DNA from: Pseudofulvimonas gallinarii
GTDB taxonomy: Bacteria; Pseudomonadota; Gammaproteobacteria; Xanthomonadales; UBA2363
Assembly: GCF_004343305.1 (NCBI RefSeq)
Contig: NZ_SMAF01000003.1
Coordinates: 62,001 to 126,000, forward strand
Length of the DNA stretch: 64,000 nucleotides
Direction of reading: 5' to 3'
The notes beneath the pieces were generated by a model. It saw only the letters and a program-made list of their open reading frames with translations. It had not been told where the DNA came from and did not search any database. Below are positions 2,303 through 34,462 of this stretch, one piece after another. The position numbers and the translations under genes were made by a program. Each line of letters begins with the position of its first letter. The stretch's first letter is position 1.

Positions 2303-3229
2303 ATGCAGCAGGGCACACCCGACATCCACGCCGTCACGGAATTCCTGCAGGGCCTGCAGGACCGCATCTGCGCTGCCATCGAACAGCTGGACGGCGGGGC
2401 CGCCTTCAGCGAGGACGCCTGGCAGCGGCCGGAAGGCGGCGGCGGGCGTTCGCGCGTTCTCAAGCAGGGTGCGGTGTTCGAACAGGCCGGCGTCGGTTTC
2501 TCCAGCGTCGGCGGCGAAGCCCTGCCGGCGGCGGCCAGTGCGCGCCGGCCGCAACTGGCGGGCGCTCCCTGGCAGGCCGTCGGCGTGTCCCTGGTGTTCC
2601 ATCCGCGCAATCCGCACGTCCCCACCACGCACATGAACGTGCGCTACTTCCAGGCCAGGCCGAGCGAAGGCGAGCCTGTGTGGTGGTTCGGTGGCGGTTT
2701 CGACCTGACCCCGTTCTATCCGGTCGATGCCGACATCCGGCACTGGCACGAAGTGGCCAGGTCGGTCTGCGAACCCTGGGGCGGAGAAGCGCGCTACCAG
2801 GCGCACAAGCGCTGGTGCGACGAGTATTTCCACCTGCGCCACCGCGGCGAGACGCGCGGCGTCGGCGGCCTGTTCTATGACGACCTGAACGAGGACGGTT
2901 TCGATGCCAGCTTCGGCTACACGCGAGCGGTCGGCGAAGGTTTCCTCGATGCCTACCTGCCGATCGTCCGCGCCCGGAAGGACGCGCCGTATGGCGAGCG
3001 CGAGCGCCAGTTCCAGTTGTACCGCCGCGGCCGCTATGTCGAATTCAACCTGGTGTTCGACCGCGGCACGCTGTTCGGCCTGCAGAGCGGTGGCCGCACC
3101 GAATCGATCCTGATGAGCCTGCCGCCGCTGGTGCGCTGGGAATATGGCTACCAACCCGAGGCCGGGTCTGCCGAAGCCCGCCTGGCCGACTACCTGCGTC
3201 CGCGCGACTGGCTGGCGGAACTGCCCTGA
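2303..3229 (+). CDS. hemF: Oxygen-dependent coproporphyrinogen III oxidase HemF
   Basis: Decarboxylates coproporphyrinogen III to protoporphyrinogen IX with O2, in the cytoplasm, as a late haem-synthesis step. The 308-residue length is normal for HemF. Diagnostic stretches are [13 protein letters not shown] near the N-terminus, [41 protein letters not shown] and [18 protein letters not shown] with SILMSLPP. The start is the ATG preceded by AAGGAG at 2291-2296, six bases upstream; the frame is open further upstream but without a better start. It is transcribed away from the FakAB-plsY pair. An oxygen-dependent HemF implies an organism that makes haem aerobically. Confidence 0.97.
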
Positions 3230-3254
3230 ACCGGACGGCCGTAACGGATGCTGC

Positions 3255-3292
3255 AAATAAAAACCCCGGACGTTAGGGGTCAACGTCCGGGG
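3255..3292 (-). terminator. Intrinsic terminator of the sX13-like RNA and of polA
   Basis: Perfect 11-bp stem CCCCGGACGTT (3264-3274) / AACGTCCGGGG (3282-3292) with a 7-base loop. Read on the minus strand it is followed by TTTTTATTT, a proper U-tract; on the plus strand no T-run follows. It would end the sRNA and any read-through from polA. Confidence 0.92.
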
Positions 3293-3385
3293 CCGGTTAC
3301 AAGGCTGCCTAGGGGAGGAAACAGCCTTATCGTTTTTCGGTTCACCAGGGAGGAGGGTGAACCTGACGGGCCTCACGGCCAGTCG
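3258..3385 (-). ncRNA. sX13-like small RNA with three C-rich-loop hairpins
   Basis: On the minus strand, about 60 bases after the polA stop, lie three hairpins in a row. Hairpin 1: GGTTCACC / GGTGAACC with loop CTCCTCCCT (about 3336-3362). Hairpin 2: AAGGCTG / CAGCCTT with a loop holding TTTCCTCCCC (3301-3328). Hairpin 3: an 11-bp terminator stem with loop GACCCCT (3264-3292) followed by T5. This order, the C-rich loops and the place downstream of polA match sX13 of Xanthomonas, an Hfq-independent regulator that pairs with G-rich sites near start codons. The 5' end is uncertain; a weak -10 (CAATAT, minus strand, about 3390-3395) would start the RNA near 3385. The structure is seen directly; the family link is from knowledge and not searched. 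Confidence 0.85.
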
Positions 3386-3445
3386 CGCATATTGACGCGC
3401 GTTCGGCGGCGAAGTTCCAGTGAAAGAAGTTGGGGTGTTCAGCTG

Positions 3446-6175
3446 TCAGTGGGCTTGATCCCAGTTGTCGCCGATGCCTGCGTCAACGACTAACGGAATC
3501 TTAAGTTCCGCCGCGGCACACATGCGTTCGGTGATCAACGCGCGAGCCTCTTCCAGCGCATCTTCGCGCACTTCGAATACCAGTTCGTCATGCACCTGCA
3601 TGATCATTTTCGCCGGAAACTCACGCCGCCTCACGCAGGCGTCCAGGTCGATCATCGCGCGCTTGATGATGTCGGCGGCGGTGCCCTGCATCGGTGCGTT
3701 GATGGCGGCGCGTTCGGCGGCCTGGCGGAGATTCGCGTTGCGCGCGCGGATGTCGTTCAGGTAGAGGCGGCGCCCGAAGACGGTTTCGACATGACCGCGC
3801 TCGCGCGCCTGTTCGCGTGTGCTTTCCATGAAGGCGCGGACGCCGGGATAGCGGGCGAAGTAACGGTCGATGTAGTGCTGCGCCTCGCCGCGGTCGATGC
3901 CGAGCTGGCGCGCCAGTCCAAACGCACCCATGCCGTAGATCAGGCCGAAGTTCACCGCCTTCGCGGCGCGACGTTCATTGGCGCTGACCTCGTCGAGCGG
4001 TTTGCCCAGCACTTCGGCGGCGGTGGCGCGATGGATGTCCAGGCCGCTGCGGAACGCCGCCAGCAGCCCCTCGTCGTCGCTGAGGTGCGCCATGATCCGC
4101 AGCTCGATCTGCGAATAGTCGGCGGCGAGGATCTTCCAGCCCGGCGGAGCGATGAAGGCCTGGCGGATGCGGCGGCCTTCCTCGCTGCGCACCGGGATGT
4201 TCTGCAGGTTCGGATCCGACGACGACAGCCGGCCGGTTGCGGCGACCGCCTGGTGGTAGCAGGTGTGCACGCGCCCGGTATCGGGGTTGATCTGTTCGAT
4301 GAGCTTGTCGGTGTAGGTCGAGACCAGCTTGGCCAGGCTGCGGTAATCGAGGATCACGCGCGGCAGTGGATGCTGGTCGGCCAGGGCGTCCAGCGCTTCC
4401 TCGTTGGTGGACGGCTGGCCGGTGGCGGTCTTGAATGCCACCGGCAGGCCCAGTTCCTGGTACAGGATCGCCTGCAGCTGTTTCGGCGAATCCAGGCTGA
4501 AAGCGCGGCCGGCCATGGCATGGGCCTGCTGCTCCAGTTCCAGCATGCGCTGGCGCAGGTGGCGTCCCTGTTCGACGAGCATGTCGCGGTCGATCAGCAC
4601 GCCATTGGCCTCGACGCGGCCGAGAACCGGCACCAGCGGCATTTCGATCCGCGTGAACACATCGCGCGGACCGGGCTCGTCCTGCAGCAGCGGCCACAGC
4701 ACCTGGTGCAGGCGCAGGGTGACGTCCGCATCCTCGGCGGCGTAGCGGGTCGCCGTCCCGAGGTCGACCTGGCTGAAGCCGATGCGCTTGCTGCCCTTGC
4801 CGGTGACGTCGTCGTACTTGATCGTCGTGACACCGAGGTAGCGGGCGGCGAGCGAATCCATGTCGTGCCTCGTCGCGGTGGCGTTGAAAACGTAGGACTC
4901 GAGCATGGTGTCGAAGGTGACATCGGCGACCTCGATGCCGGCACGACGCAGGATGTGCAGGTCGTACTTGCCGTTCTGGGCGACGCGCTTTTTCATCGGG
5001 TCGGCCAGCAGGGGTGCAAGGTCCGCCAGCACCTTCGCGGCCGGCAACTGCGGGGCGACGCCCGGACCGTCGTGCGCCAGCGGCACGTAGCAGGCGATGC
5101 CGGGCGCGACCGCCAGCGACAGGCCGACCAGCGTCGCGCGCTGCGGGTCCAGTCCGGTGGTCTCGGTGTCGAAGGCGAAGCAGTCGGCGTCGCGCAGCCG
5201 TTGCAGCCAGCCGGCCCAGGTCGCTTCGTCGAGCACCAGGTCATAGTGGCGTTCGATGCTGTCGCCAGCGGGCGTCGGGACGGCCGCGGCGCCGGTCGCC
5301 GCAGGCGCGCCCGCGGTTTCGGAAACGGCGCCGCCGCCATCGAGCTCGCGCAGCGCCGCCGTGAAACCGTAGCGCGTGTAGATCTGTCGCAATGCTTCGC
5401 GATCGGGTTCGCCCGGGCGCAGCTGCCCGGGGCCGAGTTCCAGCGGCACGTCGGTGCGGATGGTCACCAGCTCGCGGTTCAAGGGCAGGCGTGGAAGGGC
5501 GGTGCGCAGGTTTTCGCCGAGCTTGCCCTTGAAGGTGTCGGCCGCGGCCATGATCGCATCCAGACTGCCGAATTCCGCGAGCCATTTCGCGGCGGTCTTC
5601 GGGCCGCATTTCTCGACGCCGGGCACGTTGTCGATGCTGTCGCCCATCAGGGCGAGGTAGTCGATGATGCGCTCGGGCGGCACGCCGAACTTGCCGATCA
5701 CGCCGTCCCGGTCCAGGGCGCTGCCGGACATGGTGTTGACCAGGCCGATGCGGTCGTCCACCAGCTGGGCGAAATCCTTGTCGGACGTCGAGATCGTCAC
5801 CTGCAGGCCGGCCGCGGCGCCTTGCCGGGCGAGGGTGCCGATCACGTCGTCCGCCTCGACGCCCTCGATGCGCAACAGCGGCAGGCCCAGGGCACGCACC
5901 AGTGCGTGCAGCGGTTCGATCTGCACGCGCAGGTCGTCCGGCATCGGCGGCCGGTTGGCCTTGTACTGCGGGTCCAGTTCCTCGCGGAAGGTCGGGCCTG
6001 AGGCATCGAAGACCACGGCGACATGGTCCGGTCGATCGGCCAGGTGCTTGCGCAGCATGTTGAAGACGCCGAACAGCGCGCCCGTGGGTTCACCCTCGCG
6101 ATTGGTCAAGGGCGGCAGGGCATGGAAGGCGCGGAACAGGTAGGACGATCCGTCGATCAGCAGGAGTGTGCTCAT
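3446..6175 (-). CDS. polA: DNA polymerase I
   Basis: Repair and Okazaki-fragment-processing polymerase, 909 residues, close to the usual 900-930. Residues 1 to about 255 are the 5' nuclease (LLLIDGSSYLFRAFHALP, GVEADDVIGTLA, GDSIDNVPGV). Residues about 315-500 are the 3'-5' proofreading domain, with an intact exonuclease motif FAFDTETTGLDP, so proofreading should be active. Residues about 520-909 are the polymerase: TGRLSSSDPNLQNIPVR, motif A DYSQIELRIMAHLS, the O-helix region RRAAKAVNFGLIYGMG and motif C VHDELVFEV. The start is the ATG at the end of a divergent gap shared with dusA. The sX13-like sRNA follows in the same direction, an order also known in Xanthomonas. Confidence 0.98.
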   Translation of the reverse strand: MSTLLLIDGSSYLFRAFHALPPLTNREGEPTGALFGVFNMLRKHLADRPDHVAVVFDASGPTFREELDPQYKANRPPMPDDLRVQIEPLHALVRALGLPLLRIEGVEADDVIGTLARQGAAAGLQVTISTSDKDFAQLVDDRIGLVNTMSGSALDRDGVIGKFGVPPERIIDYLALMGDSIDNVPGVEKCGPKTAAKWLAEFGSLDAIMAAADTFKGKLGENLRTALPRLPLNRELVTIRTDVPLELGPGQLRPGEPDREALRQIYTRYGFTAALRELDGGGAVSETAGAPAATGAAAVPTPAGDSIERHYDLVLDEATWAGWLQRLRDADCFAFDTETTGLDPQRATLVGLSLAVAPGIACYVPLAHDGPGVAPQLPAAKVLADLAPLLADPMKKRVAQNGKYDLHILRRAGIEVADVTFDTMLESYVFNATATRHDMDSLAARYLGVTTIKYDDVTGKGSKRIGFSQVDLGTATRYAAEDADVTLRLHQVLWPLLQDEPGPRDVFTRIEMPLVPVLGRVEANGVLIDRDMLVEQGRHLRQRMLELEQQAHAMAGRAFSLDSPKQLQAILYQELGLPVAFKTATGQPSTNEEALDALADQHPLPRVILDYRSLAKLVSTYTDKLIEQINPDTGRVHTCYHQAVAATGRLSSSDPNLQNIPVRSEEGRRIRQAFIAPPGWKILAADYSQIELRIMAHLSDDEGLLAAFRSGLDIHRATAAEVLGKPLDEVSANERRAAKAVNFGLIYGMGAFGLARQLGIDRGEAQHYIDRYFARYPGVRAFMESTREQARERGHVETVFGRRLYLNDIRARNANLRQAAERAAINAPMQGTAADIIKRAMIDLDACVRRREFPAKMIMQVHDELVFEVREDALEEARALITERMCAAAELKIPLVVDAGIGDNWDQAH

Positions 6176-32482: not shown

Positions 32483-32804
32483 GGCGCGGATTATATAGGG
32501 ATGATGGCGCGTAGGAGCCGCGTGTACGGTTCCCGGAAAGGTACCAGGGGCGTTGGATCGGGCGTGTCGCGGACCAGCAGTGTGGCCAGGCCGCGGGGTT
32601 TCAGGGTCCGGATGTTGCCTGAAAAGGGCGTGAACCACACGTCAGGAGAGTGATCCGGGTCGCAAAAGGGCAGGAAAAACAACACGTAACGGGTCTTTTC
32701 GCTTCAGGTTGTAAAAAAGGTGTTGCGTTCTGCTCCGGTTTTGGCCTTTAATCCACGGACAGAACAAACTGCCGTAAGAGGCCGTCTCAACAGGGGGGAA
32801 CGGC
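32483..32804. promoter_or_regulatory. Divergent mrcA-pilM control region
   Basis: 322 bases without a gene. For pilM, TTGCGT (32723-32728) and TTTAAT (32747-32752), 18 bases apart, form a plausible sigma-70 promoter. No -24/-12 GG-GC element was noticed. The part near mrcA shows nothing I can name. Right before the pilM GTG there is a run of six G (32793-32798) that may serve as ribosome site and as an sRNA target. Confidence 0.5.
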
Positions 32805-33854: not shown

Positions 33855-34462
33855 TGGCCGCGAATATCAACCTATTGCCATGGCGCGCGAAGCGCCGCAA
33901 GCAGCGCGAACGCGAGTTCTACACCCTGCTCGGATTTGCCGCGATCCTCGGCGTCCTGCTGGTGCTCGCGGGCATCTTCTTCTACAACGCCCGCATCGAT
34001 CACCAGAAGGCACGCAACACCTATCTCACCCGCCAGATCGAGGCCTTGAACGAACAGATCAAGGAGATCGAGCAGCTGGAAGAACGACGCCGCCAGCTCA
34101 TTGCCCGGAAGGAAGTCATCGAAAAGCTGCAGGCAGACCGTACGCGGATGGTCCATCTTTTCGACGAGCTGGTGCGAACCATTCCAGAAGGTGTCCGCCT
34201 GACCGCCATCAAGCAGGCAGGTCCCCAGCTCACCCTGGAAGGCTTGGCCGAGTCCCACTCGCGGGTCTCCATGTACATGAGAAGCCTAGAAGACTCCGAC
34301 TGGCTGACGAGTCCCGACCTGAACATCATCGATGCCAAGGGTGAGGACCAGCGCAGCCGCTTCGCCTTCACGCTGCGTGTCCAGATGACGACGCCCGGCG
34401 CGAGTGAGAAGAAGGAAGAGGCGGATACCTTTGCCTCGGCAGGTCCGGGAGGTTCGCCATGA
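33854..34462 (+). CDS. pilN: Type IV pilus assembly protein PilN
   Basis: 202 residues. The conserved INLLPWR motif at residues 4-10, which docks into PilM, precedes one membrane segment (YTLLGFAAILGVLLVLAGIFFY) and a periplasmic coiled coil (about 45-95) plus a ferredoxin-like fold. Its ATG overlaps the pilM stop and its own end overlaps the pilO start. Confidence 0.96.
   Translation: MAANINLLPWRAKRRKQREREFYTLLGFAAILGVLLVLAGIFFYNARIDHQKARNTYLTRQIEALNEQIKEIEQLEERRRQLIARKEVIEKLQADRTRMVHLFDELVRTIPEGVRLTAIKQAGPQLTLEGLAESHSRVSMYMRSLEDSDWLTSPDLNIIDAKGEDQRSRFAFTLRVQMTTPGASEKKEEADTFASAGPGGSP

Follow-up and report, generated by a model that had tools for sequence, protein, structure and literature searches.

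A predicted small RNA gene with C-rich hairpin loops and a sigma-E-type promoter motif behind polA in Pseudofulvimonas gallinarii

We analysed a 64,000-nucleotide stretch of the Pseudofulvimonas gallinarii genome (the window) and found that a predicted RNA gene on the minus strand, between polA and hemF, is well supported by its sequence (Table 1). We think it quite probable that this is a stand-alone gene for a trans-acting sRNA, which would start at an RpoE/AlgU-type promoter, block G-rich ribosome-binding regions with its C-rich loops and belong to a family that extends through the Gammaproteobacteria.

Results

The original prediction had placed three hairpins on the minus strand behind polA, and these are borne out, with loops CTCCTCCCT (3347-3355), TCCTCCCC (3311-3318, within TTTCCTCCCCT) and ACCCC (3276-3280); the T-run at 3259-3263 and the position behind a Pfam-confirmed polA also stand as claimed. 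It did not mention a fourth hairpin (HP0, 3365-3384), the sigma-E-type promoter (3391-3418) or the breadth of conservation. The predicted RNA shares its strand with polA and starts 61 bases beyond the stop codon of that gene. The region 3250-3400 folds at -72.2 kcal/mol compared to -45.6 +/- 3.7 kcal/mol for dinucleotide shuffles (z -7.1), and the RNA contains three C-rich-loop stems of at least 5 pairs, a number reached by none of 2000 dinucleotide shuffles, while 9 of the 2000 reach two. The core of the HP1 loop is identical to the anti-Shine-Dalgarno core of 16S rRNA.

Table 1. Positions of the predicted RNA gene, its parts, its neighbours and a candidate target site within the window.
Feature	Position	Strand	Basis and remarks
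Small RNA gene, predicted transcript ~126 nt	3259..3384	-	Models R1 and R2, fold z
HP0, 5' hairpin GACUGGCC-GUGA-GGCCCGUC	3365..3384	-	Fold; relatives have it in the same place
HP1 hairpin	3339..3363	-	Loop CUCCUCCCU at 3347-3355; fold; loop class conserved
HP2 hairpin	3299..3330	-	Loop UCCUCCCC at 3311-3318; fold
HP3, intrinsic terminator	3262..3294	-	Loop ACCCC at 3276-3280, within GACCCCT; T-run 3259-3263
-35 element GGAACTT, sigma-E-type promoter	3412..3418	-	Sequence; kept in congeners and class-wide
-10 element TCAAT, 16 bases past the -35	3391..3395	-	Sequence; TCTAT in congeners
polA, DNA polymerase I, upstream neighbour	3446..6175	-	909 aa, Pfam DNA_pol_A
hemF, coproporphyrinogen III oxidase, convergent neighbour	2303..3229	+	Pfam; start inferred
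GGGGGG before the pilM start (GTG 32805)	32793..32798	+	Candidate target site for the HP2/HP3 loops

An Rfam scan of the window returned no family at gathering score. On the RNA itself, ar14 (RF02344) gave the best permissive score (39.2 bits, E 1.1e-5, below its gathering score of 58.8), and the Pseudomon-1/ErsA model (RF01719) gave 17.0 bits, short of 50. The covariance search with the sX13 model (RF02232), which had been suggested as a check, produced a match that also stays below the gathering score (33.1 bits against 50, E 1.9e-4), and a whole-genome scan with this model was dropped, as it missed the window RNA and had only weak matches elsewhere. The RNA is a formal member of no Rfam family. 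Its description as an sX13-like RNA in a non-model lineage stands for place, architecture, covariation and model matches in both directions, but not for formal sX13 membership. The host belongs to a family of its own, distinct from the Xanthomonadaceae, within the order that includes Xanthomonas.

We found that the RNA lies behind polA in both congeners, with nearly identical loops and an HP1 stem that is the same except for its innermost pair. The same layout follows polA in families f3, f5, f9 and f12 and in the Xanthomonadaceae (f2); in family f4 the RNA does not follow polA immediately, although two genomes have an sX13 model match ~2 kb away from it, and in the sampled post-polA regions of family f6 it is absent. 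All 30 parsed relatives have exactly four hairpins in unchanged order. For model R1, six MAFFT-aligned sequences from family f9 alone were used, which leaves the window RNA outside the training set; R1 gives 28.7 bits (E 2.9e-4) for the window RNA and 38.2 bits (E 3e-6) for the sX13 of family f2, with 45 matches in total, other families included. Among 80 polA loci from many lineages (520 kb), each of its 16 matches at E<=1 is downstream of polA. Model R2, with 53 rows, none from Pseudomonas, scores the window RNA at 69.3 bits with that RNA in its training set, and at E<=0.01 it finds a match in 102 of the 274 genomes sampled from the class, where ~3 would be expected. On the 80 polA loci, 47 of its 48 matches lie behind polA on the polA strand and one lies elsewhere; outside the class, matches were few and weak. 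The window RNA shares the traits of this class-wide family, namely four hairpins, of which HP1 has a loop of CCUCCC type and HP2 and HP3 hold CCCC, plus a promoter of the GAAC[CT]-N16-TC type.

BLAST of the RNA within the host genome gave no paralogues. R2 points to a second RNA-like locus there (L230, G000:C1:135176-135288, minus strand; 39.2 bits) with a terminator and two CCCUCCCUC-type loops; its flanks contain no polA over 1.5 kb, and the 50 bases upstream showed no GAACTT motif. Elsewhere the RNA occurs in tandem, with four copies in a row at L234 and two or more at each of L240, L257, L258 and L068. Among 20 class-wide loci scanned, 19 have no Rfam family above threshold at the RNA; the sole other member (L243, 1517-1622) exceeds the cut-off of anti-hemB (Burkholderia RNA 7), so anti-hemB may belong to the same group.

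The stems covary among relatives, and the absence of covariation that would have spoken against the RNA was not encountered. In the alignment of R1 matches, which was fitted to the structure and therefore leans towards it, 94.2% of cells are paired, both sides change in 35 of 36 pairs, and the covariation score is 0.78 compared to at most 0.11 for slid partners. An unfitted MAFFT alignment of family f9 contains 4 double-changed pairs, all in HP1. The three congeneric sequences have 2, within the shuffle range, a number in keeping with three close sequences and too low for a decision. Plain MAFFT misaligned the hairpins of diverse relatives, and a single-family alignment was taken as the seed; another alignment (A1), made from N-padded, hand-trimmed sequences, was misaligned and discarded.

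Two classes of target had been proposed from the loops, and throughout the class HP1 loops are CCUCCC(U) or CUCCCU with nearly no exception, while HP2 loops are mostly CCCC(A) and HP3 loops mostly CCCC. Two loop classes are thus a trait of the family. In the window RNA, however, the division is less clean, since its HP2 loop UCCUCCCC holds both motifs, and HP1 and HP2 therefore have the seed complement GGGAGGA in common.

The -35 element of the putative promoter lies 27 bases beyond the polA stop codon, and the congeners carry GGAACTT-N16-TCTAT. RpoE/AlgU promoters have a consensus of the type GGAACTT-N16-TC. Of 23 class-wide loci, 21 have a GAAC[CT]-type -35 followed by N16 and TC at most 55 bases before the model match, in a stretch outside the view of the covariance models and with a spacer of 16 bases in every case; the motif occurs in 1.6% of control windows (binomial p ~4e-36 if the loci are counted as independent). 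A broader promoter pattern had 74 matches in 138 post-polA regions compared to 2.9% of shuffles. The host encodes RpoE (319.7 bits, cut-off 236) with an RseA-like ORF, named by eye, after it; the rpoE ATG is preceded, at a distance of 56 bases, by GGAACTT-N16-TC, which is consistent with rpoE autoregulation. In Xanthomonas (L074, L005), the -35 is GATCC and the -10 is degenerate.

Genome-wide, the stricter pattern GGAACTTN15-17TCNAT has three matches, one at the window RNA and one, GGAACTT-N16-TCCAT (L163, G000:C34:10065-10092), upstream of an fkpA-like gene for a peptidyl-prolyl isomerase, identified by eye. fkpA is a classic sigma-E target. GGAACTT-N16-TC was rejected as a genome-wide regulon finder, as its 25 matches do not exceed the 33 of a reversed control, and because of this lack of enrichment we claim no regulon; the motif draws its weight from its position and conservation.

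One alternative is that the hairpins are cut out of the polA mRNA by an RNase and need no promoter of their own. The short distance to polA on the same strand would suit such a 3'UTR origin, as would HP3, which also makes a good polA terminator. We consider this very unlikely, since a promoter-like motif with a fixed spacer precedes the RNA at 21 of the 23 class-wide loci, ~2 kb separate the RNA from polA in the two f4 genomes, and sX13 and ErsA are independent genes. Moreover, the RNA of family f7 has the opposite orientation to polA (L198, 484-601, minus strand; L216, 397-512, minus strand), next to a hemF-like gene, and at L216 it is preceded by GGAAACT-N17-TCAGAT; this inversion, together with a retained promoter-like motif, argues for an independent gene.

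A genuine sRNA could also be read constitutively by the housekeeping sigma factor, with GGAACTT as a chance or relic match. sX13 has been described as constitutively expressed (PMC3771888), and the motif alone lacks genome enrichment. However, no sigma-70-like site was found before the RNA, the position of the motif is conserved class-wide and in the congeners, and the same motif precedes rpoE, so that we regard constitutive transcription as improbable and favour a sigma-E-type start.

Predictions of targets, which depend on short G-rich words, were made on a 0.86 Mb genome sample with home-made gene calls. GGGAGG occurs in the -18 to -4 zone of 1.2% of genes compared to 0.15% in a control zone, which implies that few mRNAs fit. 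pilM and a prepilin-like gene are among the best predicted loop-leader duplexes, and a run of at least 4 G just before pilM is shared by both congeners; of 8 more distant genomes, 6 have it and the two from f9 lack it. We treat pilM as a candidate and a lead only, because it was picked after ranking and because G-runs may persist as ribosome-binding sites. Just before the start of pilO, GGGAGG (window 34447-34452) complements the HP1 and HP2 loops, but it is not kept in the congeners and was set aside. hfq, an sX13 target in Xcv, was likewise rejected as a conserved target, with no GGGG at its start here.

Instead of acting as mRNA antisense, the C-rich loops might be decoys to which a protein or the ribosome binds. 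The loops are strikingly constant class-wide while the stems differ, as a common ligand would demand, and tandem copies exist; on the other hand, Shine-Dalgarno-type target sites are constant themselves, and in reporter assays G-rich mRNAs escape repression when the sX13 loops are mutated (PMC3771888). A decoy role therefore seems doubtful to us, and pairing with mRNAs remains the preferred reading.

Discussion

From these features we infer transcription, sigma-E dependence, pairing of the loops with mRNAs, repression and a set of targets, the later steps being modelled on sX13 and ErsA. Under envelope stress, RpoE would be freed, and a sigma factor of the RpoE/AlgU kind would start the RNA just behind polA, with HP3 terminating it. 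Rigid stems would present the C-rich loops, so that these alone would be free to pair. HP1 (CUCCUCCCU, with its anti-Shine-Dalgarno core) would then pair with GGGAGG, and HP2 and HP3, through CCCC, with GGGG, in the ribosome-binding region of few mRNAs. Loops lying over G-rich ribosome-binding sites would block translation during envelope stress, and the best candidate targets would be type IV pilus genes, pilM first.

ErsA, an sRNA investigated in Pseudomonas, is sigma22-driven and lies between polA and engB (PMC5819304, PMC8575079). Although trained without Pseudomonas, R2 matches 28 Pseudomonas-type loci behind polA, which are related and do not represent 28 independent events, and in 3 of 3 that were scanned with Rfam the Pseudomon-1/ErsA family is found there. 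A similar region was seen at L083 (NZ_VWXI01000017.1), named Pantoea sp. Cy-639, which has a Pseudomonas-like polA region and an ErsA-like RNA and whose name may be wrong. ErsA is a probable, more distant part of the class-wide family that would also link sX13 and the window RNA. Its model scores are modest (17-31 bits), and the alignments show its HP1 truncated or unpaired, which suggests that ErsA is either a derived form or a product of convergence.

We lean towards the reading that an ancestral gammaproteobacterial sigma-E sRNA lay behind polA, with four hairpins, two of them with CCCC loops and one with an anti-Shine-Dalgarno-like loop, and that it gave rise to sX13, ErsA and the window RNA as lineage forms, mostly outside Rfam families, which would provide a repressive arm of the envelope stress response in many lineages. 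Convergence of unrelated RNAs on a favoured site behind polA, each with C-rich loops, is a somewhat less probable account. The modest ErsA scores and truncated HP1 would fit it, as would the requirement of ErsA for Hfq and its pairing through an unstructured stretch. However, place and promoter type are common to these RNAs, as are C-rich loops in the last two hairpins, and a single model match in 520 kb lies away from polA. No paper naming both sX13 and ErsA was found in the non-subscription literature searched. If sX13 and ErsA descend as lineage forms from a single sigma-E-driven RNA, findings on their targets, loops and Hfq from different organisms could be compared, a testable cause would be at hand for the increase of sX13 at 37 C and in high salt (PMC3771888), and a regulatory RNA could be annotated in many genomes where Rfam shows nothing.

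Among known RNAs, ErsA and the window RNA both lie behind polA, have a sigma22/AlgU-type promoter sequence, here GGAACTT-N16-TCAAT, and carry C-rich loops in the last two hairpins; unlike the window RNA, ErsA has a missing or truncated HP1, pairs via an unstructured linker and involves Hfq. ar14 likewise has hairpins with CCUCCUCCC loops, but its cut-off is missed and it was described for Alphaproteobacteria. Spot 42 and ar7 are also adjacent to polA in other bacteria (PMC3771888), without reported sequence similarity to sX13, and R2 found no match among the polA loci tested from Vibrio, Edwardsiella, Chimaeribacter and Aeromonas.

The closest comparison is with sX13, which represses G-rich mRNAs via its C-rich loops and represses type IV pilus genes in Xcv (PMC3771888). 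sX13 was reported to be exclusive to the Xanthomonadaceae (PMC3771888), whereas the host here is in another family of the order and relatives occur class-wide, so that sX13-like RNAs extend beyond that family. sX13 repression is Hfq-independent, and an hfq gene is present in the host genome. The Rfam sX13 model has its first base within HP0 (L074 and L006 compared to RF02232), so the annotated 5' end may result from processing or from a different start, and start site or processing may differ in Xanthomonas. Both RNAs lie behind polA, are of similar length, have C-rich hairpin loops with the third in the terminator hairpin, and are recovered by R1 (L006 for sX13). They differ in that the window RNA has a strong sigma-E-type promoter sequence and unrelated stem sequences, and in their HP1 loops, AUCCCCUG in sX13 and CUCCUCCCU here; sX13 has CCCC or CCCCC in three loops, while the window RNA has CCCC in HP2 and HP3 and none in HP1. 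Altogether, the window RNA most likely works like sX13, as a variant set apart by its loops, its promoter and its Rfam score.
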